Assembly (NCBI GenBank): GCA_945878525.1
Contig: CAMCTU010000007.1
Coordinates: forward strand, 1-43,191
Direction: 5' to 3'
Length of the DNA: 43,191 bases
From: Sphingobacterium thalpophilum
GTDB taxonomy: Bacteria > Bacteroidota > Bacteroidia > Sphingobacteriales > Sphingobacteriaceae
Positions 1,183-32,834 of the stretch are shown piece by piece. The notes under the pieces are model-generated. The model had not been told where the DNA came from. It saw only the letters and a program-made list of their open reading frames with translations, and searched no databases. Each line of letters begins with the position of its first letter. Positions within the stretch are counted from its first letter, which is position 1. The position numbers and the translations under genes were made by a program.

Positions 1183-1929
1183 ATGAAAATTGGTCTTTTT
1201 ATACCATGTTATGTAAATCAGTTGTATCCGAATGCTGCAATAGCTACGCTGGAACTACTGCAAAAGTTAGGTGCTGAGGTTAGCTATCCTTCAAAACAAA
1301 CCTGTTGCGGTCAGCCAATGGCCAATTCGGGCTATGAACATCTTACACAATCATGTAATGATCTTTTTGTTGAAAATTTCTCAGGTTTTGATTACATAGT
1401 AGCCCCATCCGCAAGCTGTGTATTGCATGTGAAAGATCATTTACATTCTCATAAAGATGAAGTTGCGGCCACAGAAATACGTGGTAGGATTTACGAACTA
1501 GTGGAATTTCTTACCGATGTTTTAAAGATAGAGAAACTTGATGCCCATTTTCCTCATAAAGTTGGTGTCCATCAGAGTTGCCATGGATTAAGGGGACTTC
1601 ATTTGGCGCAAATGTCTGAGCTTGTTTCTCAGGATTTTTCTAAGCCCAAAAAATTGTTGGGTATGGTTTCCGGACTTGAGCTTACAGAACTAGACCGGGT
1701 GGATGAGTGTTGTGGATTCGGAGGGCTTTTCTGTATTGCAGAGGAAGCTGTATCTGTAAAAATGGGCAAGGACCGGATTACAGATCATACTAAGAATGGT
1801 GCAGAGTATATAACTTCACCTGACTTATCTTGTCTGATGCACATGGAGGGAATCATGCATAGAAATAAAAGTAAAGTCAAGATAATACATATAGCAGAAA
1901 TATTAAACAGCTCATCCATAAAGGCATGA
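1183..1929 (+). CDS. lutA: LutA/YkgE-type (Fe-S)-binding subunit of an L-lactate oxidation complex
   Basis: This 248-residue protein has the duplicated CCG cysteine-rich domain of the LutA/GlpC/HdrB group. Visible motifs are CCG at residues 41-43, PSASC (Cys79), QSCH (Cys133), and ECCGFGGLFC with Cys176, Cys177 and Cys184, which together can bind an Fe-S cluster. It is normal length for LutA and has no signal peptide, so it acts in the cytoplasm. Known LutABC complexes oxidise L-lactate to pyruvate. Its stop overlaps the lutB start by four bases (ATGA), so the two are translationally coupled. It is first in an operon with lutB, lutC and a malate-synthase-like gene, so another 2-hydroxyacid such as glycolate is possible. 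Confidence 0.88.
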   Translation: MKIGLFIPCYVNQLYPNAAIATLELLQKLGAEVSYPSKQTCCGQPMANSGYEHLTQSCNDLFVENFSGFDYIVAPSASCVLHVKDHLHSHKDEVAATEIRGRIYELVEFLTDVLKIEKLDAHFPHKVGVHQSCHGLRGLHLAQMSELVSQDFSKPKKLLGMVSGLELTELDRVDECCGFGGLFCIAEEAVSVKMGKDRITDHTKNGAEYITSPDLSCLMHMEGIMHRNKSKVKIIHIAEILNSSSIKA

Positions 1930-3302
1930 AAAGTAACTTAGATCACGCAGCATTAGCAGAAGAATTTAATAAAGATGAAGAACGTGTCGACTGGCATGAT
2001 GGTTCACTTTGGTGGATCAGACAAAAGCGCGACAGGGCCGCAAATCAAACTCCGCAATGGGAGGAATTGCGTGAAGCGGCCTCAGCCATAAAATCCAATG
2101 TAATTTCCAATTTGCACGATTATCTCATTCAATTTGAGGAAAATCTGAAGAAAAATGGAGTTAAGGTTTACTGGGCATCTGATGCAGAGGAGCATAATCA
2201 GATTGTTTATTCTATCCTAAAGGAAAAGGAAATTACTCAGATGGTTAAAAGTAAGTCTATGCTTACTGAAGAATGCCATTTAAATGAATACTTGGAAGAC
2301 CGGGGAATTGAGGTAATAAACTCTGACCTTGGGGAATATATACAACAAATTGATAATGAGCCGCCTAGTCATATTGTATTGCCATGCATTCACAAACGTA
2401 AAGAAGAAATAGGCGAGTTATTTCATGAGCATCTCGGAACAGAAAAAGGTCTTTCAGATCCAACTTTATTAACCAGGGTAGCACGCAAACACCTTAACAA
2501 TGTATTCCTGACACGTCGTGCAGCACTCACCGGCGTCAATTTTGCTGTTGCTGAAACCGGTGAGTATGTGGTTTGTACCAACGAGGGAAATGCAGATATG
2601 GGTGCACATCTTTCTGAGGTTCAAATTGCTTCCATGGGATTAGAAAAGATTATTCCGGAGCGTAAGCACCTTGGGGTATTTTTAAGATTATTGGCTCGAA
2701 GTGCAATTGGGCAGCCAATAACCATTTATTCCAGTCATTACAAGAAACCTCGTCAAGGACAGGAGATGCACCTAATATTAGTTGATAAGGGTAGAAGTGA
2801 TTTATTGGCCCGGCCAGATTTCAGAGATTCTTTAAAGTGTATTAAATGCGGTGCTTGTATGAATACTTGTCCGGTTTACCGTAAAAGTGGCGGTTTAAGT
2901 TATCATAATACTATCTCCGGACCGATCGGGGCAATTCTTGCGCCAAATCTGGATATGAAACAGCATGCAGATCTGCCCTTTGCTTCAACACTTTGTGGTT
3001 CATGTACCAATGTATGTCCGGTTAAGATTCCAATTCATGATCAGCTTTATAAATGGCGTCAGGAAATTGTGAGGCTAGGTTATTCAGCTAACCGTAAGAC
3101 CTTCAGCATGAAGGCAATGGCACTAACTCTTTCTTCCCCCGAAATTTATAAGACAGCAGGGAAAACGGGACGCTGGTTATTGAATAATGCGCCTTTTGCA
3201 ATCAATAATAAGTTCAATCCATGGTATAAGCAGCGCGACATGCCGGATAGTACACAGGAATCTTTTGGAGAGTGGTATGCAAAGAATGGTTCAAAGAAAT
3301 GA
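1926..3302 (+). CDS. lutB: LutB-type iron-sulfur LUD-domain protein of lactate utilisation
   Basis: This 458-residue protein has an N-terminal LUD domain (about residues 70-300) followed by a two-cluster ferredoxin-like segment. The first cluster motif is CIKCGACMNTCP, starting at Cys305. The second is CGSCTNVCP, starting at Cys357. The domain order and length match LutB/YkgF, the electron-transferring subunit of LutABC. The start ATG lies inside the lutA stop (ATGA), which supports it. lutC follows after 15 bases. The protein is predicted cytoplasmic or loosely membrane-associated. No odd residue loss was seen in either cluster motif. Confidence 0.9.
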   Translation: MKSNLDHAALAEEFNKDEERVDWHDGSLWWIRQKRDRAANQTPQWEELREAASAIKSNVISNLHDYLIQFEENLKKNGVKVYWASDAEEHNQIVYSILKEKEITQMVKSKSMLTEECHLNEYLEDRGIEVINSDLGEYIQQIDNEPPSHIVLPCIHKRKEEIGELFHEHLGTEKGLSDPTLLTRVARKHLNNVFLTRRAALTGVNFAVAETGEYVVCTNEGNADMGAHLSEVQIASMGLEKIIPERKHLGVFLRLLARSAIGQPITIYSSHYKKPRQGQEMHLILVDKGRSDLLARPDFRDSLKCIKCGACMNTCPVYRKSGGLSYHNTISGPIGAILAPNLDMKQHADLPFASTLCGSCTNVCPVKIPIHDQLYKWRQEIVRLGYSANRKTFSMKAMALTLSSPEIYKTAGKTGRWLLNNAPFAINNKFNPWYKQRDMPDSTQESFGEWYAKNGSKK

Positions 3303-3317
3303 TAAAAAGTAATATTA

Positions 3318-3902
3318 ATGAGTAGCAGAGAAAATATATTGACGGCTGTCAAAAAAAATCAGCCACCACTTACAGCCCTTCCAGATATTTCCATGTTTAA
3401 GGTGCATGAGGTAGATATTGTTAAAAAGTACAGTGAAATGTTTGCTGGCATTGGTGGTTTACTTGTTTCGGCAGGAAGTATTGAGAATGTAAAGGAACAG
3501 ATTCGAATGAATTTTGATCAAGGCAGGCGAATTCTCACAACACTTCCTGAATTATCTGATGTTGCGGAGTTATGTGATCCAGAATCAGATCCTCACAGTC
3601 TGTTGGATGTAGAGTTAGCCATTATTGAAGCGCGTTTTGCAGTAGCAGAAAATGGTGCAGTTTGGTTAACAGAAGATGTTATGGGGCACCGAATATTACC
3701 ATACATTGCCCAGCATCTTGCAGTAATTGTTTCTGAAAGTAACATTGTTTCAACTATGCATGATGCCTACAACAAAATAGGTTCAGAAGATTATGGCTTC
3801 GGAGGTTTTATCGGCGGCCCTTCCAAAACAGCCGATATTGAGCAGGCATTGGTGCTAGGTGCTCATGGTCCTTTGAGTATGACCGTTTATCTGATTAAAT
3901 AA
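3318..3902 (+). CDS. lutC: LutC-type LUD-domain protein of lactate utilisation
   Basis: This 194-residue protein consists of a single LUD domain. The segment with ARFAVAENGAVWL at about residues 94-106 and the glycine-rich C-terminal part (GFGGFIGGPSKTADIEQ, then LGAHGP) are typical of LutC/YkgG. It completes the lutABC set and starts 15 bases after lutB. The malate-synthase-like gene follows after 15 bases, so all four genes should share one transcript. LutC is required for LutABC function in characterised species, but its exact role in the complex is not settled. Confidence 0.87.
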   Translation: MSSRENILTAVKKNQPPLTALPDISMFKVHEVDIVKKYSEMFAGIGGLLVSAGSIENVKEQIRMNFDQGRRILTTLPELSDVAELCDPESDPHSLLDVELAIIEARFAVAENGAVWLTEDVMGHRILPYIAQHLAVIVSESNIVSTMHDAYNKIGSEDYGFGGFIGGPSKTADIEQALVLGAHGPLSMTVYLIK

Positions 3903-3917
3903 TTTACCCTGATACAA

Positions 3918-5804
3918 ATGAAGAACGATTCAATCATTATTCGTGATAATTTAAAAGAGAAGTATAGAGATATTTATACTGATGAGGTTTTGCTGGCCTT
4001 GAATACAATGGCCCATTTTAATAAATCAGTGAAGGATTTAATGAACGAGCGGATCAAACGCCGTAATGATCGTCATATCAACAACAAACGAATTGAGTTC
4101 TATCATCCTGATAGTCTGATTCCAGGTTCAAACATTAAAGTTTCTGATGCCAGGGAAGGAAGGTTTGAAGGTTCTGTTATTCCTCATGATCTTATGCAGC
4201 AATGGATTCAGGGCACAGGACCTGCAGCAAAACCCAATGCAACTCTTGAGAGCAGTATTAGGAACGCAGCTTACGCGCTTTTATCAGGAGCTGATGGCTG
4301 GATGTTTGACGGAGAAGATGCTCTTGGTCAAATTGATAGTATGTCACTAGATAACCAGCGAAATTTAAAACTTGCAATTGCCAAAGATCTGGTTTTTTTA
4401 AAAGTGGCAGAACAGGTTGCCTCCGAAATGAATCGCTGGTCGGAGGGTTTCTTGGGTCAGAAAATTGTCGGGGACTGGAAAAGCCAACTTGATTTTACAA
4501 CTAAGATTTTCCGTTGCCGCGGACTACATTTAGACGACAGGCATATTCGTGATTCTGAAGGTGTAGCCTTAGCAGCATCGATTGCCGACCTTTGCCTGTA
4601 TGTAGTTAACAATTACAAGCAATTAAGGAAGGCAGGTTCATCAATTGTTCTGTATCTGCCTAAAATCCAAACTGCTGCTGAGGCCGCCTTATGGAATAGC
4701 ATGTTGAGTGCTTTGGAAGATCATCTTGGATTAGAAAACGGAACGATTAAAGTATATCTGCTGGTAGAGCAACTTGAAGCTACCTACCAGTTAATGGAGA
4801 TCAGAGCTGTTCTGGGTAAACATTTTGTAGGTTATAATACCGGTCGTTGGGATTATATTAACAGTGTTTCTGATGCAATGGCATGGGATAAGAACTTTAT
4901 TAATCCTAACATAGAATCAGTCACCATGACTTATGGTTATATGCGTAACTATGAAGACAGGGTTCGCAGAGCAGTAAATACACCTGATGTTAATGGAAAT
5001 TGTGCGATCTGGCAAGGAGGAATGGAACCTAATATTCCTGTGGGATCTGAAGAAGGTGTTGCTGCAAGCATGAAGAGAGCACTGGCAGGAGCAGAAAGAG
5101 AGCAACGCGAAGGAGCGAGTGGAAAATGGGTTGCCCATTGGAAAATGGTAAATATTGTAAGGCCGGTGTGGGAAAAGATAGCGGAAGCCAATCAGGTTGG
5201 TCGTAAATTTTCGGCTCTGACTTACACACAACAGGATGCTGATGGTTTGATTTTGCTTGAACCGGCGCCGATTACAATCAGGGGAGCCAGAAATTTGATT
5301 AGTGTTGCGATACAGTACGGTAATGCTTTTGCCCAAGGTATGCAGGCAGCAGCGCTAAAGGCTGCAGATGATTTTGGTAATGATGACATCCTCTATCTGA
5401 TGGAGGATATGGCTACAGGAGAGATCAGGCTAAGCATCGTTTGGGAATGGGTACATAAAGGTGCTGTATTTACCGAGGATGATGCTGAAACGGGTATCAA
5501 AATTGGGGATAAGTTTAGTTATGATTTACTGAAAAGGCTGATCGATGAAGAATATGAAAAGCTGTTAAAGGCTGATAATAAAGACGTTTACGATGCTTCA
5601 AAAACAACAACCTTGCCAATTGCGCGGGAGATTGCAGAGATTTATGTTTTTAATGAATTTAAAATTCCTTGGTTTATAGACCTGCTTAACATTAATCTGA
5701 ACAATGAGGATCTTGCTGAGGCCAGAAAAAGAATAGCAGATTATATCGAAACTTTCAAACTGGAAGGCAAACGTATAACAGAAAACCCTGATTTTATTGT
5801 TTAG
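3918..5804 (+). CDS. Malate synthase-like enzyme
   Basis: This 628-residue protein shows malate synthase A landmarks in order: a GADGWMFDGEDALG segment near residue 122-135, RCRGLHLDDRH near 199-209, VEQLEATYQLMEI near 282-294 followed by VGYNTGRWDYI, SGKWVAH near 402-408, and MEDMATGEI at 495-503, where the catalytic Asp (497) of the family lies. Malate synthase joins glyoxylate and acetyl-CoA to give malate. It is roughly 90 residues longer than usual MSA proteins, and several motifs diverge, so it may be a subfamily with a shifted substrate. No isocitrate lyase is encoded here. Its place 15 bases behind lutC suggests that it consumes a 2-oxoacid made by LutABC, possibly glyoxylate from glycolate; that is inference. 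Confidence 0.72.
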   Translation: MKNDSIIIRDNLKEKYRDIYTDEVLLALNTMAHFNKSVKDLMNERIKRRNDRHINNKRIEFYHPDSLIPGSNIKVSDAREGRFEGSVIPHDLMQQWIQGTGPAAKPNATLESSIRNAAYALLSGADGWMFDGEDALGQIDSMSLDNQRNLKLAIAKDLVFLKVAEQVASEMNRWSEGFLGQKIVGDWKSQLDFTTKIFRCRGLHLDDRHIRDSEGVALAASIADLCLYVVNNYKQLRKAGSSIVLYLPKIQTAAEAALWNSMLSALEDHLGLENGTIKVYLLVEQLEATYQLMEIRAVLGKHFVGYNTGRWDYINSVSDAMAWDKNFINPNIESVTMTYGYMRNYEDRVRRAVNTPDVNGNCAIWQGGMEPNIPVGSEEGVAASMKRALAGAEREQREGASGKWVAHWKMVNIVRPVWEKIAEANQVGRKFSALTYTQQDADGLILLEPAPITIRGARNLISVAIQYGNAFAQGMQAAALKAADDFGNDDILYLMEDMATGEIRLSIVWEWVHKGAVFTEDDAETGIKIGDKFSYDLLKRLIDEEYEKLLKADNKDVYDASKTTTLPIAREIAEIYVFNEFKIPWFIDLLNINLNNEDLAEARKRIADYIETFKLEGKRITENPDFIV

Positions 5805-11380: not shown

Positions 11381-12688
11381 ATGAAAAGAAGACAATTTAT
11401 GTCTAACACGTTGTTTGCAGGTTTAGGAAGTTTGAGCCTTAATACCTATGGATCTGAGCATCTTATTTTTTCTGAAGACAGTGGATTAAACGGCTTAGAC
11501 TTAAACAAGCTACATGATTTTTACCATGCCGAGATCTTCAACAGGTTTATACCCAACATGGATAAGTTTGTCATAGACCATAAGCTTGGTGGCTTCATGA
11601 CATCTGTAGATATTACCAACGGTAAGCAGGTAAATTCTAACAAGACTGCATGGTTTGAAGGCAGAGGAATGTGGACTTATTCTTTTCTTTATAACAACAT
11701 CGAAAAGAATCCTGAATATTTAGAAATAGCAAGAAAATCAAAGGATTTCATTCTTAAACATTTGCCTAAGGATGACAAATTTATTACTTCCTCTTACAGC
11801 AATGATGGAAATCCATTGTCAGGCCCAGGCGATATTTATTCCAGCTTATTTGTTGCAGAAGGACTAGCTGAGTTCGCAAAGGCTACTAACGATAAACAGT
11901 ATTTTAAGATTGCTAAAATGCTTATTTTGTCTTGTCTTGATCGTTACGATAGTCCTGATTATGATTATTATGTTGCCTACCTAAACTCTGAGGCACCTAA
12001 AATTCCTGGCCCAAGGGTTCTTGGCCATTGGATGGTATTTCTGCGTGCTGCCACTCAAATTTTAGAGAATGGCCCGGATGCTGAAATGGAGAAATTAGCC
12101 GATAGATGCCTGGATGCTTGTCTGAATCATCACTTAAATCCAAAGTATAACTTGTTTAATGAGGTTTTAAATCATGATTTCAGTCGAACGGATAATTCTT
12201 ACAAGGATTTTGCCTATACAGGTCATGGTATAGAAATGTGTTGGATGTTGCACTTCGAAGCTGTCCGAAGAAAGGATAAAAAGCTTTTTGACAGAATTAC
12301 TGAGGTGTTTAAAAGTCATATTAATGTTGCTCATGATGATGTTTATGGCGGATATTTCAGATCACTTGATCATGTAGACAATAATATCTGGAAGGTAGAC
12401 AAGGTACTTTGGCTTCAGGAGGAAGTCTTGATAGGTAGTATGTTTATCGCTGAGCATACCGGAGAGGAATGGGCTAAAAAGCTTTTTAATGAAACACTTG
12501 AATATGTTTTGAAGAGTTTTGCAAAGCCAGGTAATTTATTTTGGGCTTCTGCCGGCGACCGCTTTGTGAAAGAATATGCTAAAACAAGAGCTGAACATTA
12601 TCATCATCCCCGGCACCTGATGCTTAATTTGCTTTCTTTGAAGAGAATGATTAAACGTAAAGGTAAAACATCCGGACTATTTGAATGA
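11381..12688 (+). CDS. Tat-exported AGE-family (N-acylglucosamine 2-epimerase-like) protein, copy 1
   Basis: This 435-residue protein opens with a twin-arginine signal (KRRQF then FAGLGSLSL) and continues as an (alpha/alpha)6 barrel of the AGE family (PF07221). The two catalytic His regions are visible: GHGIE (His282, Glu285), matching the family HxxE motif, and YHHPRH (His408), matching the family HxPR motif. Characterised members epimerise or isomerise N-acylglucosamine, mannose/glucose or cellobiose and are usually cytoplasmic, so export is unusual. The next gene is a paralogue whose longest frame overlaps this stop by four bases (ATGA). The substrate is unknown; an oligosaccharide or uronate-containing product of the lyases nearby is plausible. 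Confidence 0.85.
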   Translation: MKRRQFMSNTLFAGLGSLSLNTYGSEHLIFSEDSGLNGLDLNKLHDFYHAEIFNRFIPNMDKFVIDHKLGGFMTSVDITNGKQVNSNKTAWFEGRGMWTYSFLYNNIEKNPEYLEIARKSKDFILKHLPKDDKFITSSYSNDGNPLSGPGDIYSSLFVAEGLAEFAKATNDKQYFKIAKMLILSCLDRYDSPDYDYYVAYLNSEAPKIPGPRVLGHWMVFLRAATQILENGPDAEMEKLADRCLDACLNHHLNPKYNLFNEVLNHDFSRTDNSYKDFAYTGHGIEMCWMLHFEAVRRKDKKLFDRITEVFKSHINVAHDDVYGGYFRSLDHVDNNIWKVDKVLWLQEEVLIGSMFIAEHTGEEWAKKLFNETLEYVLKSFAKPGNLFWASAGDRFVKEYAKTRAEHYHHPRHLMLNLLSLKRMIKRKGKTSGLFE

Positions 12689-12717
12689 AATCAGCCTTTG
12701 TCTTGAAACAATACAAT

Positions 12718-14055
12718 ATGAAAAACAATGAATATTCCCGGCGTAAATTCTTAAAGAATAATACCTTAGCTGGATTGGGTTTAATGGCCTCGGCAACTCT
12801 CGCAGGATCTGTTTTGCCAGACGTAAGTCTTGCTTCACAATCTCTGGATCTGAAAAAGATTAGTGGTCTGGATTTTAAAAAGCTTCGTGAAGAGTACAGT
12901 GAGGCCTTGTTAGGTAAATTCATTCCAAATATGGATAAGTATATTGTGGATCATGAATTAGGGGGTTTTATGTGTTCTGTGGATATTCTTACCAGAAAGC
13001 TTGTCAATACCACTAAGCGGGCATGGTATGAAGGAAGGGGAATATGGATGTATTCTTTTCTTTATAATAATCTGGATAAGAACCCATCTTATCTTGAGAT
13101 CGCTCGTAAATCCAAGGACTTTATTTTAAAGCGCTTTCCTACAGATGGCAGTTATTATATCTCCTCTTTCACTAAGGAGGGGGATCCAATTGGTGATACC
13201 GAAGGGGATATTTACGGGAACCTCTTTGTAGCAGAAGGACTTGCTGAATATGCAAAGGCTGTTAACGAAACAAAGTATTTTGAGCAGGCAAAAGAAATTG
13301 TCCTAAATGCTGTTCAGCGTTATGACAGACCAGAATTTACCTATAATTATAAGGCAGAAAGCAGAATAGCCGGGCCTCGTATTCTCGGGCATTGGATGAT
13401 TCTGCTAAGTGTATGCACACAAATGCTCAGGCAAAAAAATGATAATGAAATCAGAGCCCTTGCTGATCGATGCGTTGATGCTATTATGAATCATCACCTG
13501 AATTCTGACTACAGACTTTTGAATGAAGCACTGGGGCATGATTTAAATCCTTTAAGCGATCCTGTAGCCTCCCAATACGGCGATCTTGGTCATGGTTGTG
13601 AAACTCTTGCATTTGTAATGAACTATGCAGTTCTGACTAAGGACGCCAGTCTCTTTCATCGTTCTGCTAAAGAATTTAAAAGACATGTGGATACTTCCTG
13701 GGATGATGTTTATGGGGGTTATTATCATGAACTCACAAACGTAAATAATAATACCTGGACTTTGAACAAATTACGCTGGGTTCATGAAGAGATTCTGATT
13801 GGAGCAATGATCCTGATTGAACATACCGGAGATGAATGGGCAATTAATTGTTACGCCAGAACTGAGGAGTATATCAGAAAGAAATATGTTCGGCCTGAAT
13901 ATGCATTTGTGATTGATAGTGGAGACAGAAAAATGGAAAATCATACCCAGATAAGAGCAGAACACTATCATTATCCAAGACAGTTAATGGTTGGCTTACT
14001 CGCGATCGATCGTATAACGAGCAGAGGTGAAAAGCCTTCAGGAATTTTTTCCTGA
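12718..14055 (+). CDS. Tat-exported AGE-family protein, copy 2
   Basis: This is a close paralogue of the preceding gene. It shares PNMDK, DHxLGGFM, the WYEGRG/WFEGRG segment and KSKDFILK. The chosen start at 12718 places the Tat motif SRRKFLKNN six residues in, giving 445 residues. An ATG at 12685, overlapping the upstream stop as ATGA, would add 11 residues and could be used for coupling. Catalytic residues are retained: GHGCE with His292 and Glu295, and HYPR with His418. The pair probably arose by tandem duplication. Different active-site surroundings (GHGCETLAF versus GHGIEMCWM) suggest different substrates or steps. The function is inferred from the family only. Confidence 0.84.
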   Translation: MKNNEYSRRKFLKNNTLAGLGLMASATLAGSVLPDVSLASQSLDLKKISGLDFKKLREEYSEALLGKFIPNMDKYIVDHELGGFMCSVDILTRKLVNTTKRAWYEGRGIWMYSFLYNNLDKNPSYLEIARKSKDFILKRFPTDGSYYISSFTKEGDPIGDTEGDIYGNLFVAEGLAEYAKAVNETKYFEQAKEIVLNAVQRYDRPEFTYNYKAESRIAGPRILGHWMILLSVCTQMLRQKNDNEIRALADRCVDAIMNHHLNSDYRLLNEALGHDLNPLSDPVASQYGDLGHGCETLAFVMNYAVLTKDASLFHRSAKEFKRHVDTSWDDVYGGYYHELTNVNNNTWTLNKLRWVHEEILIGAMILIEHTGDEWAINCYARTEEYIRKKYVRPEYAFVIDSGDRKMENHTQIRAEHYHYPRQLMVGLLAIDRITSRGEKPSGIFS

Positions 14056-14060
14056 ATCGT

Positions 14061-14072
14061 AACGTAAACGTA
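14061..14072. promoter_or_regulatory. Possible operator, copy 1 (LacI-like palindrome)
   Basis: AACGTAAACGTA lies 43 bases before the aldo/keto reductase start. It is one base away from the perfect TACGT-AA-ACGTA palindrome found at 22460-22471 and contains the GTAAACG core typical of LacI-family operators. No LacI-type regulator gene is in the window, so this rests on the repeat alone. Confidence 0.35.
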
Positions 14073-14115
14073 TATTGAGACTTTATTTTTTCAATAATTA
14101 TAATAAAATTCCCCG

Positions 14116-15168
14116 ATGATTAAACAGAAATATGAAGGCCAGGCATTTTACAATGCGCCATTCGTGGTTGAAAATTTTAATGGTATGCCTTACCGCTTAC
14201 TCGGCAAGTCCGGATTAAAGGTTTCAAACATAGGCCTTGGAACCTGGAAAATGGGTTATCCGGAAAGTGGAGATGAGGCACGTATCGATAAGAAAAATTC
14301 ATTTGACATTCTCGACAAGGCTATTGATTTAGGCGTTACTTTCTGGGACACTGCAAACAGATACAATAATGCTTCTGGTAATTGTGAACGAATTATAGGT
14401 AAATGGTTTAAAAAGCATCCTGAACAGAGGCGAAATGTAGTCCTTGCTACAAAAATGTCAGGAACTATGGACGGATTAAGTCCGAATCATTGTGGGATTT
14501 CTAGAGGTAATATCATGGAATCAGTATATGCAAGTCTGGAAAGACTTCAAACTGATCATATCGACCTGCTTTATTTTCACAGATTTGACGGAATAACTCC
14601 TCCTGAAGAAAGTTTGTCAGCAATTGAGGATCTGGTCAGGCAGGATCTAATTCGTTATTTTGCGGTTTCAAATGCCAGTGTTGATATTCTTAAAACTTAC
14701 CAAGCTGTACAATCTCAAATGTCTGTAAGAAGTAGGATACTGGCAGTACAGAATCAGTTTGATTTGCTTGATGGCGAATCAGTAATTGATAAAGGGGTTA
14801 TGGAATATGCCTCAGAACAGGGCATCTCTTTTATAGGCTGGAGTCCAATGGCCAGAGGTCTGCTAAGCAACAGATACCTTAATCCTGTAACTGCCGGCCC
14901 AGGCGATCGTTTGTTTGATGAAGGAGATCTGAAAATAAAGGCAAGTCCTGAAAATATGACTAAACTACACGCACTTGCAGCAATTTCAAACGAAATGGGC
15001 ATTGAACTTAGTCAGCTTGTAATGGCCTATATGTTAACTATGAAAGGTATGGGTCCAATTATTCCATCCTCCTCTAATGTCAAACAGCTTGAGTCAAATG
15101 CAGCTGCCGGCAAACTAATTTTAACTGATAAACAGATTGCTAGTGTCAAGAAAATTGTAAACTACTAG
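14116..15168 (+). CDS. Aldo/keto reductase
   Basis: This 350-residue protein has the full catalytic tetrad: Asp78 in FWDTANRY, Tyr83, Lys113 in LATKMSG, and His155 in LLYFHRFD. The N-terminal strand LGKSGLKVSNIGLGTW and the C-terminal GPIIPSSSNVKQLESN cofactor-binding segment are standard for the NADPH-dependent Kv-beta/Gas-like AKR group. An extra stretch of about 28 residues precedes the first strand, and there is no signal peptide, so it should act in the cytoplasm. It follows the epimerase pair by 60 bases and precedes the lyase-like gene by 9 bases. It probably reduces a keto or aldehyde sugar intermediate of the pathway; the substrate is unknown. Confidence 0.87.
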   Translation: MIKQKYEGQAFYNAPFVVENFNGMPYRLLGKSGLKVSNIGLGTWKMGYPESGDEARIDKKNSFDILDKAIDLGVTFWDTANRYNNASGNCERIIGKWFKKHPEQRRNVVLATKMSGTMDGLSPNHCGISRGNIMESVYASLERLQTDHIDLLYFHRFDGITPPEESLSAIEDLVRQDLIRYFAVSNASVDILKTYQAVQSQMSVRSRILAVQNQFDLLDGESVIDKGVMEYASEQGISFIGWSPMARGLLSNRYLNPVTAGPGDRLFDEGDLKIKASPENMTKLHALAAISNEMGIELSQLVMAYMLTMKGMGPIIPSSSNVKQLESNAAAGKLILTDKQIASVKKIVNY

Positions 15169-15177
15169 TTCATCAAA

Positions 15178-16746
15178 ATGACAATTTTAAGATTTAATTT
15201 CGCCACTTTTTCAATTATTGTACTATCTGTTTTAAACAGTTTTGGGCAAGCCAAAAAACTAGACCAGGATGCCCGTAACGCGATGCTTGCTGCAACCCGC
15301 TTTATGGTAGAAAAGGCAAGCGTGAATGGAGGCTATGTTGCACATTATCTTCCTGATTTTTCCCGTCGATGGGGTGAGCTTGAAGGATTTAAAACTCAGG
15401 TATGGGTTCAAGATCCCGGTACTGTAAGTATGGGAAATGTATTTCTAGATGCTTATGAAGCTACAGGGGATGAATATTATTATCTCGCCGCAGAAAAAGT
15501 TGCCTCTGCACTTATCTGGGGTCAGTTGCCTGAAGGAGGTTGGAATTACATGATTGACTTTGCCGGAGATCGTTCCTTAAAACACTGGTACAATACGATC
15601 GGAAAAAACGCTTGGGGCTTTGAAGAGTACTATTATTATTACGGAACGTCCACATTTGATGATTCCAATACTTCAGGGCCCGCTACTTATCTTCTCAGGC
15701 TCTATCTTCAGAAGATGGATATTAAATACAAACCTGCGCTTGATAAAGCTATCCAGCTTGTTATTGACAGTCAGTATCCGCTTGGTGGATGGCCGCAGCG
15801 ATTCCCACTAAAAGACAATCATCCTAAAAATGGCAAAGAGGATTATTCTGCATATTATACTTATAATGATGAAGTGATTTCAGGTAATATTGATTTTCTG
15901 ATACAGTGTTATATCAGTTTAGGGGAACAACGTTTTCTGGATCCAATTCGTCGGGGAATGAATTTTTACCTGATTACACAACAAGGAAATCCACAGGGCG
16001 GCTGGGGGCAACAATACAATATGGAACTGCAGCCTGCTCATGCAAGAAGTTATGAACCTCCTGCACTGATGCCTGGGTTTACTTATATTCACGTTTTACT
16101 ACTAATGAAATATTACCAGCTCACAGGCGACAGGAAATTTTTGGCACGTATACCTGATGCAATCCAATGGCTTGAAAGCTGCCGTCTACCTGCTGAAAAA
16201 AGTCTGGGAGGTACCCGAACTCATGCTACATTTATTGAAATGGGAACTAACAAAGGCCTATATGCTCACCGCAAAGGTACGGGAGTGAAGGACGGTAAAT
16301 ATTGGTGGGATTATGACGATAATAATCTGCTTGCACATTATGGTGGAAAAACCAATATTAATATTCAATTCCTCAAAGATGAATTCCAAAGGGTAAACGC
16401 ACTTTCATCGGAGGAAGCTACAAGGAATTCACCCTTAAAAGTGGGAATCAGCAAGGATGGTACTTTACCTCAGTCGCAGTTTATTACTGCATCTTCAAAC
16501 GCTGTATTACCCGACGAAACTGCAATTTTGGGTATAATAAAAGCTTTGGATCAGGATCGTTGGCTTGTAAAGCATATTCAAATAAGCAGACCTTTTTCTG
16601 TTTTGCCGGATGGGTCAGAAATGAATACTGCAAAGCTTAGCGATGAAAATGGGAAGGGAATCGTTGATTCATCTGAGCAGCAATACATCTCTACTCGTGA
16701 GTATGAAAAAAATATGGGCTTATTAATCAGATATTTAAAAAGATAA
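15178..16746 (+). CDS. Secreted PL10/pectate-lyase-like (alpha/alpha)-barrel protein
   Basis: This 522-residue protein has a Sec signal (cleaved near NSFGQA, residue 24). Its core resembles the Pec_lyase family (PF09492, PL10): GGWNYM near 121, GGWPQRFP near 202-209, YNDEVISGNIDFL near 229-241, GGWGQQYN near 276-283, and the ARSYEPPALM segment near 290-299, where the family has a conserved Arg. True PL10 enzymes cleave polygalacturonate. The neighbourhood here suggests another uronate-containing glycan or a repurposed toroid, so the substrate should not be taken from the family name. It sits 9 bases after the aldo/keto reductase and 9 bases before the dehydrogenase, firmly inside the operon. 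Confidence 0.7.
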   Translation: MTILRFNFATFSIIVLSVLNSFGQAKKLDQDARNAMLAATRFMVEKASVNGGYVAHYLPDFSRRWGELEGFKTQVWVQDPGTVSMGNVFLDAYEATGDEYYYLAAEKVASALIWGQLPEGGWNYMIDFAGDRSLKHWYNTIGKNAWGFEEYYYYYGTSTFDDSNTSGPATYLLRLYLQKMDIKYKPALDKAIQLVIDSQYPLGGWPQRFPLKDNHPKNGKEDYSAYYTYNDEVISGNIDFLIQCYISLGEQRFLDPIRRGMNFYLITQQGNPQGGWGQQYNMELQPAHARSYEPPALMPGFTYIHVLLLMKYYQLTGDRKFLARIPDAIQWLESCRLPAEKSLGGTRTHATFIEMGTNKGLYAHRKGTGVKDGKYWWDYDDNNLLAHYGGKTNINIQFLKDEFQRVNALSSEEATRNSPLKVGISKDGTLPQSQFITASSNAVLPDETAILGIIKALDQDRWLVKHIQISRPFSVLPDGSEMNTAKLSDENGKGIVDSSEQQYISTREYEKNMGLLIRYLKR

Positions 16747-16755
16747 AAAATAAGA

Positions 16756-18552
16756 ATGAAATTTGAGAATCAATTCCTGGTCAATCTCACGAATCCGGTC
16801 ATCAGAACCGGAATGGTATTGCTACTGATTGTCCTGGTTATATTATCCTGTTCCAAAATTTCCAGGAATTTGCCTGCGGGCTCAGCTGATAATGGCGGAT
16901 TATTCCTTCCGGATAAGTTCGAAGCAGTAGTCGTTGTCGACAGCATCGGTAAAGCAAGGCATCTGGCTGTAAATGACAACGGAGATATTTATGTTAAATT
17001 GACATTTAACAGGGCAATGAAGGGTTCAGGAGGTACAGTAGGTTTGCGTGATCTGAATGGGGATGGCAGAGCTGATTCAATTGTATACTTTGGTGATTAT
17101 AAAGATATCGGAGGCTCAGCAGTTGGAATGACCATACATGAAGGTTATCTCTATACCAGTACCGTTAATCAGGTGCTTAAAAATAAACTGACACCCGGTC
17201 AGTTAGTTCCTCAAAGTAAAACAGAAGTAGTACTGACTGACCTGAGTCCGAATGTGGCCAATAACTGGCATACCACCAAGCCTGTTGCATTTGATCGCAA
17301 AGGTTATATGTATGTTCCCTTTGGCACTCCTTCAGATGCCGGTCAGGATATTACTAAATATGGGCCAATCGGAATCCCGGAAGGTAAAGGTCTAGATCCA
17401 TCACCCGAATTGGAAACCCATGGTGGTATCTGGAGGTTTGATGCTTCCAAAACCAACCAAACCCAAAAGGACGGCTATAAGTTTGCCACTGGTATCAGGA
17501 GTGTAGTTGGGATGGTCTGGAGTCCCTTAGATGATCATTTATACGCAGTTATGAACGGTATTGATAATTTTCGTACGATTTATCCTGATTTATATACTGC
17601 ATGGCAGGCAGCTGTTTTACCTTCTGAGCCATTACTTAAAGTAACAGAGGGATCTGATTTTGGCTGGCCTTATGCCTATTATGATCATATGTTGAAGAAG
17701 AATGTCTTGCAACCAGGATATGGCGGTGATGGTAAGATCATAGGAAGAGCTTCAAAATTTGATGTGCCTGCAATAGGTTTTCCCGGACATTGGGCACCCA
17801 TGGATGTGATGTTTTATCAGGGCAATCAATTCCCTGAACGCTATAAGCAGGGAGCTTTTGTTGCATTTCATGGTTCAACAGATCGGTCTCCCTATCCTCA
17901 GGCAGGTTATATCGTTTGTTTTGTCCCTTTTAAAGATGGAGCGCCTACAGGCAATTGGGAGGTTTTTGCGGATGGGTTTACTGGGGTTGACACTGTCATA
18001 AACACCAGTGATGCCGTTTATCGCCCAATGGGACTTGCAACAGGGCCGGATGGTTCTTTATATATTTCTGAGTCTAATAAAGGTAAGATCTGGCGGGTAA
18101 TGTACAAGGGAAATAAGAACGAGTTTGGGGAGAAAGACCTTGCTGCAATGGAGCTTAGAAAGAGCAGATCCTATATTAAAGCGCCTGATGAAGTAAAGGA
18201 TAATTTGCACAGAGGTGATCGTTTAGCCGGAAGTATCTTATATAATACCTATTGTGCATCCTGTCACCAGCGGGATGGTAAAGGTGATAACAGTCGCTTT
18301 CCACCACTTGCCGGATCTGATTGGGTAAGCGGTGATAAACAAAGGTTGATCAGTGTTATTCTTAATGGATTGGATGGAGAGATCATGGTTAATGGTCAAT
18401 CCTGGCAGGGAATGATGCCTGCGCATGCTGAGTTTTTAGATGATCATGCAATTGCATCAATCTCAACCTATATCCGGCAAAGCTTTGGTAATAAGGCAAG
18501 TCCGGTTAATAGCCTCGAGGTGAGTAAGATCAGAAAAAGTTCCGGGAAATAA
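16756..18552 (+). CDS. Lipoprotein beta-propeller sugar dehydrogenase fused to cytochrome c
   Basis: This 598-residue protein has a lipoprotein signal with the lipobox VILSC at Cys32. Residues about 50-460 form a beta-propeller like soluble aldose/sorbosone dehydrogenases (PQQ-type), with segments such as GVGM-like SVVGMVWSP, EGSDFGWPYAYYDH and GLATGPDGSLYISE. Residues about 485-580 form a class I cytochrome c domain with the haem motif CASCH (Cys500, Cys503, His504) and a likely axial Met near 553 in GMMPAH. It probably oxidises a sugar at C1 in the periplasm and passes electrons to the respiratory chain through its own haem. Cofactor and substrate are inferred. It lies 9 bases after the lyase-like gene. 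Confidence 0.82.
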   Translation: MKFENQFLVNLTNPVIRTGMVLLLIVLVILSCSKISRNLPAGSADNGGLFLPDKFEAVVVVDSIGKARHLAVNDNGDIYVKLTFNRAMKGSGGTVGLRDLNGDGRADSIVYFGDYKDIGGSAVGMTIHEGYLYTSTVNQVLKNKLTPGQLVPQSKTEVVLTDLSPNVANNWHTTKPVAFDRKGYMYVPFGTPSDAGQDITKYGPIGIPEGKGLDPSPELETHGGIWRFDASKTNQTQKDGYKFATGIRSVVGMVWSPLDDHLYAVMNGIDNFRTIYPDLYTAWQAAVLPSEPLLKVTEGSDFGWPYAYYDHMLKKNVLQPGYGGDGKIIGRASKFDVPAIGFPGHWAPMDVMFYQGNQFPERYKQGAFVAFHGSTDRSPYPQAGYIVCFVPFKDGAPTGNWEVFADGFTGVDTVINTSDAVYRPMGLATGPDGSLYISESNKGKIWRVMYKGNKNEFGEKDLAAMELRKSRSYIKAPDEVKDNLHRGDRLAGSILYNTYCASCHQRDGKGDNSRFPPLAGSDWVSGDKQRLISVILNGLDGEIMVNGQSWQGMMPAHAEFLDDHAIASISTYIRQSFGNKASPVNSLEVSKIRKSSGK

Positions 18553-18611
18553 GCCTTGCCTGCTTCTGAATTTGTTAATTAATAACTGACTGTAAGTTTA
18601 AATCAAAAAAC

Positions 18612-19076
18612 ATGAAATCAAAAACTCTATCAGGTGCTCTGCTTATTATTGGATTGACATCCTGTGTAGGCAACGTAACTACTGAATCAAAAAAAGTTTC
18701 TACCGAGCGTAAGATAATTATGCCTGAAGGCTATAACAGGGGCCTGCCTTTTACTCCTGGCATTCTGGTTGACGGAACGCTTTATGTTGCTGGTTTTAGC
18801 GGAGAGGATACTAAAACCGGTGTTATCCCTGAGGACTTTGAAACTGAAGTAAAGCAGACTTTGGATAAGATCGGAGTAATACTCAAAGAAGCCGATATGG
18901 ATTATAAGGACGTAGTATCTGTGCAGGTTTATCTTACTGATATGGAATTATTCGAACGGATGAACACGGTTTACCGTACTTATTTTGATGAACCTCGTCC
19001 AACACGATCAATTATGGGAATCAAAAGCCTGATTGGCCCGGCCAGAATTGAAATTACTGTTACAGCTAAAAAATAA
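18612..19076 (+). CDS. RidA/YjgF-family protein with a lipoprotein signal
   Basis: This 154-residue protein has a lipoprotein signal with lipobox GLTSC (Cys18). It is followed by a normal Rid domain: YVAGFSGED near 58-66, QVYLTDMELF near 105-114, PRPTRS near 128-133 and GPARIEI at 142-148, with Arg145 at the position that binds the substrate carboxylate in active RidA proteins. RidA hydrolyses reactive enamines/imines released by PLP enzymes, normally in the cytoplasm. Here the signal places it in the periplasm or outer membrane, three genes from an exported SelA-like PLP enzyme (two frames downstream). That pairing suggests it clears the enamine that the PLP enzyme makes. Other Rid-family roles remain possible. 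Confidence 0.85.
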   Translation: MKSKTLSGALLIIGLTSCVGNVTTESKKVSTERKIIMPEGYNRGLPFTPGILVDGTLYVAGFSGEDTKTGVIPEDFETEVKQTLDKIGVILKEADMDYKDVVSVQVYLTDMELFERMNTVYRTYFDEPRPTRSIMGIKSLIGPARIEITVTAKK

Positions 19077-19133
19077 TAAATACATAATCCTAATATACGG
19101 CCAGATTGCCACAAATTATCAATTTAGAATATA

Positions 19134-19883
19134 ATGAAAATTAATATATCCAATAATCCTGCCGAATTAGGTGTGGTTTCTGCTGCTGCTGCAATACAAG
19201 GTATAAAAAATGCTATTGCGGATAAAGGACAGGCTAATGTCATTCTTGCAACAGGAGCAAGCCAGTTTGAAACCTTAAAATGCATTGTTCTTGATCAGAG
19301 TATTGATTGGTCCAAAGTAGTGATGTTTCATCTGGATGAATATATCGGATTACCTGAAACAGAACCTGCAAGTTTCAGAAAATATTTAAAAGAGAGATTC
19401 CTTAATCTGGTGTCTCCTTTAAAAGCCAGTTATCTTGTAGATGGAGAGAATGATCCGGAAGCTGAGTGTAAGCGGTTAAATCAGATAATTTCTGAACATC
19501 CCATTGATGTTGCTCTTGTAGGTATTGGTGAAAACGGTCACCTTGCTTTTAATGATCCTCCGGCAGATTTCGACACAGAATTACCTTACATTGTTGTAAA
19601 TCTAGACGAAAAGTGTCGATTACAACAGTTTAATGAAGGTTGGTTTAAATCAATTGATGAAGTGCCAAAGCAAGCAATAAGTATGTCAATTAAACAAATT
19701 TGTAAATCAAAACTGATTATTTGCTCTGTTCCTGATTTAAGAAAAGCCGAAGCAGTTAAGAATTCGCTCGAGAATGAAGTAAGTAATAATTTCCCTGCAA
19801 GTATTTTGCAAACCCATGCCAATTGTGTCTTTTTTCTTGATAAGCCTTCAGCGTCTTTAAGTTCCAAAATAACTAATCAATAG
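19134..19883 (+). CDS. nagB: Glucosamine-6-phosphate deaminase/isomerase-like protein
   Basis: This 249-residue protein belongs to the NagB/6-phosphogluconolactonase family. It has ATGAS (phosphate loop, residues 39-43), FHLDEYIGLP with Asp68, and the active loop GIGENGHLAFNDP with His136. Compared with E. coli NagB, the loop has Asn134 in place of Asp141 (as in Bacillus NagB) and Asp141 in place of Glu148. There is no signal peptide, so it acts in the cytoplasm, converting GlcN-6-P to Fru-6-P and ammonia if it is a true NagB. The stop and the next start are one base apart, linking it tightly to the SelA-like gene. The substitutions leave room for a related sugar-phosphate substrate. Confidence 0.78.
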   Translation: MKINISNNPAELGVVSAAAAIQGIKNAIADKGQANVILATGASQFETLKCIVLDQSIDWSKVVMFHLDEYIGLPETEPASFRKYLKERFLNLVSPLKASYLVDGENDPEAECKRLNQIISEHPIDVALVGIGENGHLAFNDPPADFDTELPYIVVNLDEKCRLQQFNEGWFKSIDEVPKQAISMSIKQICKSKLIICSVPDLRKAEAVKNSLENEVSNNFPASILQTHANCVFFLDKPSASLSSKITNQ

Positions 19884-19884
19884 T

Positions 19885-21099
19885 ATGAAACGAAGAGATC
19901 TGATTAAATACCTCTCGGTTGCCCCATTAGCAGGCGGACTAACAGGTGCTCCTTCTAATTCGGCAAGTGCAGGTGTAAAATCACTTGTAAAACGCGATCT
20001 GGTAAAAGAACTGGGATTAAGAACATTCATTAATGCCTATGGAGTTTATACGACCCATACTGCATCATTAATGCCAGATGAGGTGATGGCTGCAATACAG
20101 GATGCCTCTAAAAAGTATGTTCTGTACAATGACCTTCAGGATAAAGTTGGAGAGAAAATAGCAGCGATGTGCCATTCAGAAGCTGCAATGGTAACTTCAG
20201 GATGCTGGTCCGCACTTGTTCTTGGTACAGCCGGAATTCTAACAGGCATGGATAAGGCTAAAGTTGCCTTATTACCCGACCTTTCAGGATTTGAGAAAAA
20301 TGAGGTCATTCTTCAAAAGACTCATAGTGGTTCGTATGATCATGCCCTTACGAATACAGGAATTAAGCGTGTTTTTGTAGAGACTGTGGAGGAAATGGAA
20401 GCTGCATTCAGTTCAAAAACTGCGATGACCTGGTTTTATAATGAAGCAGATCCATGGGGTAAAATAGGTCATCAGCAATGGCTTGCTCTTTCTAAAAAGC
20501 ATAAAATACCTGCAATGATTGATATTGCGGCTGATGTACCTCCTGTTGAGAACTTATGGAAGTTCAATGATATGGGCTATGATGTGGTTTGTGTTTCTGG
20601 TGGAAAAGCCATACGTGGTCCTCAAAGTGCTGGTATTCTAATGGGCAGAAAAGAGATCATCGCAGCTGCCCGACTAAGTGCGCCTCCGGGTGGAGGTAAT
20701 ATCGGTAGGGGTATGAAAGTGAATAAGGAGGAAATATTCGGGATGTATGCGGCTCTTGATCGTTTTGTTAACCTGGATCATGGGAAGGAATGGAAAATGT
20801 GGGAAGACAGAGCTAATGTAATTCTGGATGCAGTTAAAAAGGTGAACGGAGTTAAAGCTGAAATTTTTGTACCGCCAATTGCAAATGTTACTCCAACTCT
20901 CAGGATTTCATGGGATCAGTCATCGATCAAGTTAACGCCAAGAGAAATGACTTTAAACTTACGCAACGGTGAACCTTCTATAGAGGCACCCAAGAGTATA
21001 AATGATGCAATGATCCTTTCAGTATGGATGATGCAGCCTGGAGATGAGAAAATTGTTGCCAGGCGCTTTACTGAAGAATTGCTTAAAGCCAGAGTTTAA
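19885..21099 (+). CDS. Tat-exported SelA-like PLP enzyme (D-glucosaminate-type ammonia-lyase relative)
   Basis: This 404-residue protein begins with a twin-arginine signal (KRRDLIKYLS, then APLAGG). It is fold-type I PLP-dependent and closest in pattern to the SelA-related group that includes D-glucosaminate-6-phosphate ammonia-lyase (DgaE). Visible features are INAYGVYTTHTASLMP near residue 48-63, TSGCWSALVLGTAG near 103-116, PAMIDIAAD near 208-216, and the PLP-lysine motif SGGKAIRGPQ with Lys241. It would eliminate ammonia from an amino sugar acid or a similar amino acid. A cofactor-bearing enzyme exported folded through Tat is consistent. It is one base from the NagB-like gene and 32 bases before a COG3964 amidohydrolase, the same gene partnership known for cytoplasmic relatives in Firmicutes. 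Confidence 0.78.
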   Translation: MKRRDLIKYLSVAPLAGGLTGAPSNSASAGVKSLVKRDLVKELGLRTFINAYGVYTTHTASLMPDEVMAAIQDASKKYVLYNDLQDKVGEKIAAMCHSEAAMVTSGCWSALVLGTAGILTGMDKAKVALLPDLSGFEKNEVILQKTHSGSYDHALTNTGIKRVFVETVEEMEAAFSSKTAMTWFYNEADPWGKIGHQQWLALSKKHKIPAMIDIAADVPPVENLWKFNDMGYDVVCVSGGKAIRGPQSAGILMGRKEIIAAARLSAPPGGGNIGRGMKVNKEEIFGMYAALDRFVNLDHGKEWKMWEDRANVILDAVKKVNGVKAEIFVPPIANVTPTLRISWDQSSIKLTPREMTLNLRNGEPSIEAPKSINDAMILSVWMMQPGDEKIVARRFTEELLKARV

Positions 21100-21131
21100 C
21101 AAAATTTGGTATTTATTTTAATTAAAAGCTT

Positions 21132-22385
21132 ATGCTACGCAAACCATTTTTTCTATTACTGTCAATTTCCTTGATTTCCATAGCTGTAAATGCACAAAGC
21201 AAATATAAAATCCTTATAAAGGGTGGCCATGTTATTGATGCAAAAAACAATATCAATGAAACAATGGATGTTGCAATTCAGGATGGCAAAATTGTCAGAG
21301 TAGCAAAAAATATTGATACCGCGCTTGCTGTACAGATTGTTGAAGCTACAGGAATGTATGTAACTCCTGGTCTTATTGATTTGCATGCCCATGTTTTCTA
21401 TGGTTTTGATCCGGATAGTTATTTGAGTGGTGGAACTGTGGCTGTACTTCCTGATCAGTCAACTTTCCGGGCAGGTGTAACCACAGTTGTAGATGCCGGA
21501 GGGGCAGGCTGGAAATCTTTTCCAACTTTTAAGAAAAATATCATTGATGTTTCAAAAACAAGGGTTCTTTCATTATTGAATATTGTAGGGGAGGGGATGA
21601 AGGGAATTGAAAAGTATGAACAGAATGTAAGTGATATGGACGCTAAAAAAACTGCTGAAGTTGCACTGGCAAATAAGAATGATGTGGTTGGTTTTAAGGT
21701 TGCACATTTTACGGGATCTGAATGGACTCCAATCAGCAGAGGAGTTGAGGCAGGTATACTGGCTAATATGCCCGTGATGATTGATCTGAACACACTTTTT
21801 ATATCCATTGAAGAGCTGTTTACAAAATATCTTCGTCCCGGGGATATATACACCCATACCTTTATTCAGTCATCAAGGGGAGTAGTAGAGCCCATTGTTG
21901 ATCTCAAAACAAAGAAATTTAAACCTTTCGTACTTGAAGCTCAACGTAAAGGGATCATATTTGATGTTGGATTTGGTGGTGGTAGTTTTAACTTTAATCA
22001 GGCTCTGCCGGCTTTAGAGGCAGGATTTTATCCAAATACTATGGGAACAGACCTTCATCAGGGTAGTGTAAACGGGGCAATGAAGGATCAGCTAAATGTT
22101 TTATCCATCTTCCTGGCGATGGGGATGAAGTTTACTGAACTAATTAAGGCCAGTACCTGGACACCTGCCCAAGTAATAAATCGTAAAGAACTAGGTAATC
22201 TTTCGGTCGGTGCTGTCGCTGATGTTGCAGTTTTAAGCATTCGTGATGGAAAGTTTGGTTTCAGGGATGTCGCCGGTAATAGATTTGATGGTAAACAAAA
22301 GATTGAATGTGAACTGACTATTCGGGATGGAAAAATCGTCTATGATTTGAATGCAATAGCTGGTTTAGTTAGTCAATCGAAGTGA
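21132..22385 (+). CDS. Secreted COG3964-type amidohydrolase/deacetylase
   Basis: This 417-residue protein has a Sec signal (cleaved near VNAQS, residue 21) and an amidohydrolase-superfamily barrel. Metal ligands visible are HAH (His85, His87) in PGLIDLHAH, a likely carbamylated Lys189 in GFKVAHF, His242 in YTHTF, and Asp307 in MGTDLHQG. The flanking beta-sandwich (ILIKGGHVIDAKNN, and SVGAVADVAVLSI) is typical. It resembles the EF0837/Atu3266 group, once misnamed dihydroorotase, whose members deacetylate alpha-acetyl carboxylates. In Firmicutes such genes sit beside SelA-like genes, as here. Export is the unusual point. It is the last gene of the operon; a small hairpin follows. Confidence 0.82.
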   Translation: MLRKPFFLLLSISLISIAVNAQSKYKILIKGGHVIDAKNNINETMDVAIQDGKIVRVAKNIDTALAVQIVEATGMYVTPGLIDLHAHVFYGFDPDSYLSGGTVAVLPDQSTFRAGVTTVVDAGGAGWKSFPTFKKNIIDVSKTRVLSLLNIVGEGMKGIEKYEQNVSDMDAKKTAEVALANKNDVVGFKVAHFTGSEWTPISRGVEAGILANMPVMIDLNTLFISIEELFTKYLRPGDIYTHTFIQSSRGVVEPIVDLKTKKFKPFVLEAQRKGIIFDVGFGGGSFNFNQALPALEAGFYPNTMGTDLHQGSVNGAMKDQLNVLSIFLAMGMKFTELIKASTWTPAQVINRKELGNLSVGAVADVAVLSIRDGKFGFRDVAGNRFDGKQKIECELTIRDGKIVYDLNAIAGLVSQSK

Positions 22386-32704: not shown

Positions 32705-32834
32705 AACAGATAGATGATCAGGTGCAGTAATTCTTTAATGTGCTTGTTCTCCTTTTTTAATTAATCAGCAGATTTAAATTTCTGCAATTGTGAGTCAAAT
32801 CTTCGGGATTTTCAACAATTATATTTATCAGGCT

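Follow-up and report, generated by a model that had tools for sequence, protein, structure and literature searches.

AGE-family genes with export signals

To our knowledge, the characterised AGE enzymes are cytoplasmic. Does the locus described here, in which AGE-family proteins begin with Tat-like signals, encode epimerases that would act in the periplasm, and on which sugars? The window, by which we mean the whole stretch of 43,191 nucleotides that was analysed, is contig C7 of a Sphingobacterium thalpophilum genome of 3.07 Mb, and it carries three such genes:

11381-12688, + strand: AGE-A, Tat-signal AGE-family putative epimerase, 435 aa; R95, H282, E285, E348 and HxPR intact; pocket residues G215/V219
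12685-14055, + strand: AGE-B, Tat-signal AGE-family putative epimerase, 456 aa as called, likely start at 12718; R118, H303, E306, E369, H429 and R432 intact; pocket residues G235/I239
39727-41088, + strand: AGE-C, divergent Tat-signal AGE-family protein with HSIQ, LDD and HTPR; activity doubtful

All three exceed the cut-off of the Pfam profile PF07221 (23.4 bits), with 70.6 bits for AGE-A, 83.3 for AGE-B and 30.9 for AGE-C, and the NCBIfam equivalog NF052547 is the top match of each (145-155 bits for AGE-A and AGE-B, 91 for AGE-C), short of its cut-off of 600. A fourth AGE homologue of the genome, encoded on contig C178, lacks a signal and is near canonical AGE (260 bits). The original prediction of two adjacent AGE-family paralogues with Tat signals is thus confirmed, with both open reading frames on the + strand and a shared identity of 48-49%; it had placed them back to back, however, and the two genes run head to tail, AGE-A before AGE-B, with a 4-base overlap as called. 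An in-frame ATG of AGE-B at 12718 gives MKNNEYSRRKFLK, the form of start also found in its orthologues, and is probably the true start, so that the overlap is probably not real.

AGE-A begins with MKRRQFMSNTLFAGLG, and the N-terminal regions of AGE-B and AGE-C include EYSRRKFLKNNTLAGLGL and SSRRHFLKKNSFAGLG, respectively. The twin-arginine motifs read KRRQFM, SRRKFL and SRRHFL, and are followed in AGE-A and AGE-B by a hydrophobic stretch. The motif is kept in 12 of 12 AGE-A orthologues and in 14 of 14 B-group proteins examined, down to ~45% identity, and chance is therefore not a reasonable explanation; twin arginines are also present in every aligned orthologue of AGE-C. With a twin-arginine motif, a hydrophobic stretch and one TatC gene in the genome, AGE-A and AGE-B have the sequence features of Tat substrates and are probably an exported variant of the AGE family. 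It is very improbable that the N-terminal motif is non-functional and the two proteins ordinary cytoplasmic AGEs: a sister clade without signals speaks for this, but motif and hydrophobic stretch occur in all A/B orthologues to the same identity and in 47 of 78 GTDB loci from several phyla, TatC is present, and the signal region is modelled with low confidence (residues 1-52 of the AGE-B model, except for a short stretch).

Fold and active site

The model of AGE-B (pLDDT 85.8, pTM 0.84) has a predicted fold closest to that of AGE. In VIA-align comparisons its best match is porcine AGE (1fp3; Z 46.7 over 381 residues, 2.4 A), and the AGEs of P. heparinus, Nostoc and Anabaena reach Z 46.5, 45.6 and 42.9. 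Cellobiose 2-epimerases (Z ~42-43, best 42.7) are tied with the Anabaena AGE and lie below the remaining AGEs, followed by mannose isomerase (Z 40) and YihS (Z 37-38). The closest PDB sequence relatives of AGE-A and AGE-B are likewise GlcNAc 2-epimerases, namely the cyanobacterial AGE structures (E 1e-27 to 1e-29), with cellobiose epimerases at E ~4e-8 or weaker. The idea of a glycosidase was set aside, since the fold neighbours from GH76, GH88/105 and the lyases (Z ~24-28) score far under AGE.

Residues are compared here in the numbering of nAGE10 (PMC6333288), whose R58, F116, A173 and I177 were reproduced exactly. In the alignment both AGE-A and AGE-B retain R58, H240, E243, E309 and the terminal HxPR, in agreement with the HxxE and HxPR motifs reported as intact when the pair was first noticed (GHGIE and HHPR in AGE-A, GHGCE and HYPR in AGE-B). 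Phe116, Ala173 and Ile177 form the proposed N-acetyl pocket of nAGE10, with a small and an aliphatic residue at 173 and 177, whereas RmCE and YihS have Asn and His at the 173/177 positions, where they contact O2 (PMC6333288). The equivalents of A173/I177 are G/V in AGE-A and G/I in AGE-B, the latter combination also being that of P. heparinus AGE; by contrast, the Phe116 position is Tyr in both, as in the cellobiose epimerases (RmCE) and YihS. The third His and the O2-contacting Asn of cellobiose 2-epimerase and YihS are absent from both aligned proteins, which have Ile/Val and Gly there. By these residues the pocket is mixed: mostly, not wholly, AGE-like. The GGKWKG segment that precedes HxPR in the genome's own canonical AGE is replaced in AGE-A and AGE-B; we take this segment to lie near the proposed C-terminal nucleotide site of AGE.

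These comparisons bear on an alternative in which AGE-A and AGE-B are exported epimerases or isomerases of neutral or uronic reducing sugars or oligosaccharides, of the cellobiose/mannobiose 2-epimerase or mannose isomerase type, which would trim lyase products. The Tyr at the Phe116 position argues for it, as do the PL10-like and heparinase-like lyases and the SusCD genes of the locus (see below), but Gly and Ile/Val replace the O2-contacting Asn/His, the top PDB similarities in both sequence and fold are GlcNAc epimerases, and amino-sugar genes recur near relatives. We regard this alternative as unlikely.

In AGE-C the catalytic signature is partly lost. HSIQ replaces HxxE, LDD (in LDDV, the second Glu being Asp) replaces the EE motif, and PSWQHF replaces GHWMI, HTPR being kept; HSIQ, LDD and PSWQHF are identical in four orthologues. 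The third AGE-like protein predicted at 39727 has its Tat signal, PF07221 match and HTPR motif confirmed, and its catalytic activity is doubtful. Its model is poor (pLDDT 54.6, from 5 near-identical sequences), so that membership of the family rests on the Pfam match. AGE-C is also the member for which a further explanation is most likely, namely that the proteins are exported non-catalytic sugar-binding proteins or catalyse a different reaction on the (alpha/alpha)6 scaffold. Its HSIQ and LDD motifs and its lack of the pocket motif, seen in all 5 orthologues, are consistent with this, as are two degenerate AGE paralogues in relatives and the occurrence of the same fold, at lower Z, in glycosidases and lyases; every catalytic residue is nevertheless retained in AGE-A and AGE-B, clade-wide and in the signal-less sisters, and we consider the explanation improbable.

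A rare clade in several phyla

Among named genomes, the closest relatives of the pair are mostly from Daejeonella (Sphingobacteriaceae), a genus with which the genome of the window was grouped on this basis, and 13 of 20 Daejeonella genomes carry the two genes next to each other. Among 395 evenly sampled Bacteroidota genomes, a close AGE-B homologue (E < 1e-60) occurs in 2 of the 394 others, and no close AGE-C homologue was found besides the window's own. A pattern-based scan of GTDB contigs yielded 78 clade loci, from Bacteroidota, Acidobacteriota, Latescibacterota, KSB1, Omnitrophota, Verrucomicrobia, Actinomycetota (Jiangella) and others. A simple rule assigned a Tat motif to 47 of these loci and no evident signal to 20, with 11 ambiguous; the counts are approximate because the start was taken as the first start codon after a stop.

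Phylogenetic analysis, which had been proposed as a check, separates the A/B clade from four usable canonical AGEs with an SH-aLRT of 100. This outgroup consists of the Nostoc, P. heparinus, own C178 and L030 rows, two of them partial and taken from alignment printouts; four canonical AGE rows were left out of the tree, and L034_canon, a faulty sequence with a false branch of 8.12, was disregarded. AGE-A and AGE-B fall inside a group of 35 rows, most of them Tat proteins (SH-aLRT 100), outside which lie the signal-less sister genes of Sphingobacteriaceae, and exported and signal-less members are interleaved in the clade tree. AGE-C sits on a branch of 3.6 and its placement is unsure. To judge by the sequences, this is a rare AGE clade, mostly Tat-exported and spread over several phyla, and an exported AGE is thus not peculiar to this locus. 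Three exported AGE-like proteins had been thought unusual: this holds for three in one locus, but not for a single exported AGE, Tat signals being carried by most of a rare clade. No exported AGE is described in the open-licence papers that we searched.

Some members depart from the common pattern. Two clade paralogues, L045:11411-12763 and L050:10230-11480, have GLGVQ and GIGIQ in place of the catalytic His/Glu, and the second also lacks a signal. In a Bryobacteraceae locus (L103), the open reading frame ending at ~11329 has a CutC-like N-terminal part in frame upstream of the AGE domain, which may be a fusion or an artefact of the start call.

Gene neighbourhood

The pair heads a nine-gene run (11381-22385), and polysaccharide-lyase, sulfatase and SusCD genes are found in the same locus. 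The genes that follow the pair in the run, and two further genes of the window, are:

14116-15168, + strand: aldo/keto reductase (PF00248), no signal
15178-16746, + strand: PL10-like pectic acid lyase homologue, putative Sec signal
16756-18552, + strand: GSDH-like/PVC-type heme-binding protein with CxxCH, putative lipoprotein
18612-19076, + strand: RidA-family protein, lipoprotein-like signal
19134-19883, + strand: NagB-like protein, 148 bits, below the TIGR00502 cut-off of 236.9; no signal
19885-21099, + strand: DgaE-like PLP ammonia-lyase, Tat signal KRRDLI, SGGKA lysine motif retained
21132-22385, + strand: exported amidohydrolase/deacetylase (PRK09237/NF006689, 408 bits, above cut-off)
32790-34316, + strand: neutral-ceramidase-like protein (PF04734), of a family that recurs beside the exported AGE clade in other phyla
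34576-37776, + strand: heparinase II/III-like lyase (PF07940), of a family that recurs beside the exported AGE clade in Acidobacteriota

Read by eye, Tat-looking signals are also present in the DgaE-like protein and in an amidohydrolase-2 protein at 41153, lipoprotein-like signals in the RidA and GSDH-like proteins, and a Sec-like signal in the amidohydrolase at 21132. The RidA lipoprotein, NagB-like, Tat-type DgaE-like and exported PRK09237 amidohydrolase genes are consecutive (18612-22385) and possibly form an exported set degrading amino-sugar acids. In an alignment with B. subtilis NagB, the SRT stretch is not conserved in the NagB-like protein (19134-19883); if SRT is the phosphate-binding region, its substrate may be unphosphorylated. 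The window encodes neither NagA nor an obvious source of ManNAc. Upstream of the locus, at 1183-5804, lies a LUD/LutABC-like cluster with a malate-synthase-like gene, conserved across Daejeonella.

In most of the Daejeonella loci seen, the order A, B, aldo/keto reductase, PL10-like, GSDH-like, RidA, NagB-like, DgaE-like and amidohydrolase is kept, the GSDH-like gene being missing from one. The genes after the pair differ from this order in Daejeonella JGW-45 and in D. lutea, of which strain DSM 22385 carries the pair. JGW-45 has, after the pair, genes for a sulfatase with an SGSH_C domain, an aldo/keto reductase, an FGE-like protein, a member of the Nramp family, NagA (317 bits, exceeding the TIGR00221 cut-off of 225.65), a NagB-like protein and an MFS transporter resembling NagP (366 bits, under the cut-off of 625). 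Beyond Daejeonella the neighbourhoods are highly variable. NagA is encoded near three signal-less sister genes (297, 283 and 272 bits, all above the same TIGR00221 cut-off), a NagK-like BadF-family protein is present in three Acidobacteriota loci of the clade, and clade loci of Acidobacteriota and Bacteroidales repeatedly contain ceramidase-like, DegT, SSS and heparinase II/III-like genes. Of 13 sister genes, 9 have a NagB-like gene nearby, compared with 1 of 20 canonical AGE homologues from the same family (Fisher p 1.6e-4). Ceramidase-like genes are found at 12 of 51 clade loci and at none of the 20 canonical ones (p 0.015). Both values are indicative only, the tests treating related loci as independent and the enrichment being biased towards clade loci because the neighbour families were derived from the relatives' own loci.

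Two other features of these neighbourhoods were unforeseen or lack a family assignment. Nramp-family transporter genes adjoin AGE/NagA/NagB-like operons (L047:5260-6525, L059:4136-5368 and L094), which is unexpected for sugar loci, and large proteins of no assigned family (cluster c48) are encoded beside SusCD in two AGE loci (L039:3421-5694 and L045:147-2159).

Proposed function

An N-acetylhexosamine is the best guess for the substrate, because NagA, NagB-like, NagK-like and NagP-like genes are found in operons of relatives. We give about an even chance to the proposal that AGE-A and AGE-B are active 2-epimerases of the AGE type, exported by Tat and periplasmic, which most likely interconvert GlcNAc and ManNAc; export, activity, substrate and direction of the reaction are all inferred. 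Both proteins would fold in the cytoplasm, pass through the Tat system and then work in the periplasm, where they would interconvert ManNAc and GlcNAc by deprotonation and reprotonation at C2. Alternatively, their substrate could be the reducing-end N-acetylhexosamine of short lyase or sulfatase products. The epimerised pool would then enter one downstream amino-sugar route. Of the initial idea of isomerases acting on oligosaccharides in the periplasm, the Tat-signal AGE-type proteins, the intact site of AGE-A and AGE-B and the linked lyase, sulfatase and SusCD genes hold, but an oligosaccharide substrate finds no support in that form, since the specificity positions and the recurrent NagA, NagB, NagK and NagP neighbours point to an N-acetylhexosamine.

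The later steps at this locus are more tentative: the heme-linked GSDH-like protein might oxidise the product at C1, the exported amidohydrolase might remove the acetyl group, and deamination by the DgaE-like enzyme with RidA might then give a keto-deoxy acid. As a whole, the run 11381-22385 may conceivably encode an extracytoplasmic pathway, in which ManNAc would be converted to GlcNAc in the periplasm and oxidised by the heme-linked dehydrogenase to an N-acetyl aldonic acid, the exported deacetylase, Tat-type ammonia-lyase and RidA lipoprotein would release ammonia, and the keto-deoxy acid would be taken up; we put this forward as a speculative scheme with a rather low likelihood. The oxidoreductases also suggest that the substrate of AGE-A and AGE-B could be an oxidised amino sugar or another sugar derivative (for instance a 3-keto sugar or a deacetylated hexosamine). 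GSDH-like proteins and oxidoreductases of the GMC or Gfo/Idh/MocA type are often encoded near the signal-less sister genes, and the window operon itself has an aldo/keto reductase gene besides that for the heme-linked GSDH-like protein. The catalytic and pocket residues match those of GlcNAc epimerases, however, and we judge action on such derivatives quite unlikely.

Relation to known systems

With AGE/RnBP (PF07221; P. heparinus 8bry, Nostoc nAGE10 6f04, porcine 1fp3), AGE-A and AGE-B share the fold, the catalytic Arg/His/Glu/Glu/HxPR and the small plus aliphatic residues at the 173/177 positions of the N-acetyl pocket; they differ from canonical AGE by an identity of ~20-24%, a separate clade, the Tat signal, Tyr for Phe116 and the replaced GGKWKG segment. 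Cellobiose 2-epimerase and YihS have in common with them the superfamily, the fold, the catalytic His pair and Tyr at 116, but their third His and Asn (PMC6333288) are missing from the pair, and their sequence scores are lower, as are most of their fold scores. As in NagA/NagB catabolism of GlcNAc, relatives lie beside NagA (above cut-off), NagB-like, NagK-like or NagP-like genes, whereas the window has one sub-cut-off NagB-like gene only and no NagA.

The Ong route of oxidative chitin use in Pseudoalteromonas is cytoplasmic, leads from N-acetylglucosaminate to 2-keto-3-deoxygluconate and requires the RidA protein OngD for growth (PMC9537276). By functional class alone, the window resembles it in its RidA protein and its candidates for a PLP deaminase/ammonia-lyase and an amidohydrolase deacetylase (PMC9537276). 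In contrast to the cytoplasmic OngB and OngC, however, these deacetylase and deaminase candidates have Sec- and Tat-like signals, and the ong cluster has no described epimerase (PMC9537276). No KdgK was found among the annotated open reading frames of the window.

AGE-A and AGE-B are a rare, probably exported form of a known enzyme family that probably acts here on an N-acetylhexosamine, and what is new about them is their location and genetic setting rather than the chemistry. Many AGE enzymes are activated by ATP, which is not expected in the periplasm. A Tat-exported AGE clade in which the active site is kept and the proposed nucleotide segment is changed offers a direct test of ATP-free extracytoplasmic epimerisation, and flags uncharacterised loci of Bacteroidota and Acidobacteriota as candidates for using polymers of amino sugars. 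Should the exported deaminating enzymes encoded downstream act as proposed, part of sugar catabolism would be periplasmic, and if the run 11381-22385 is indeed an extracytoplasmic pathway, steps known from the cytoplasm would be shifted to the periplasm.
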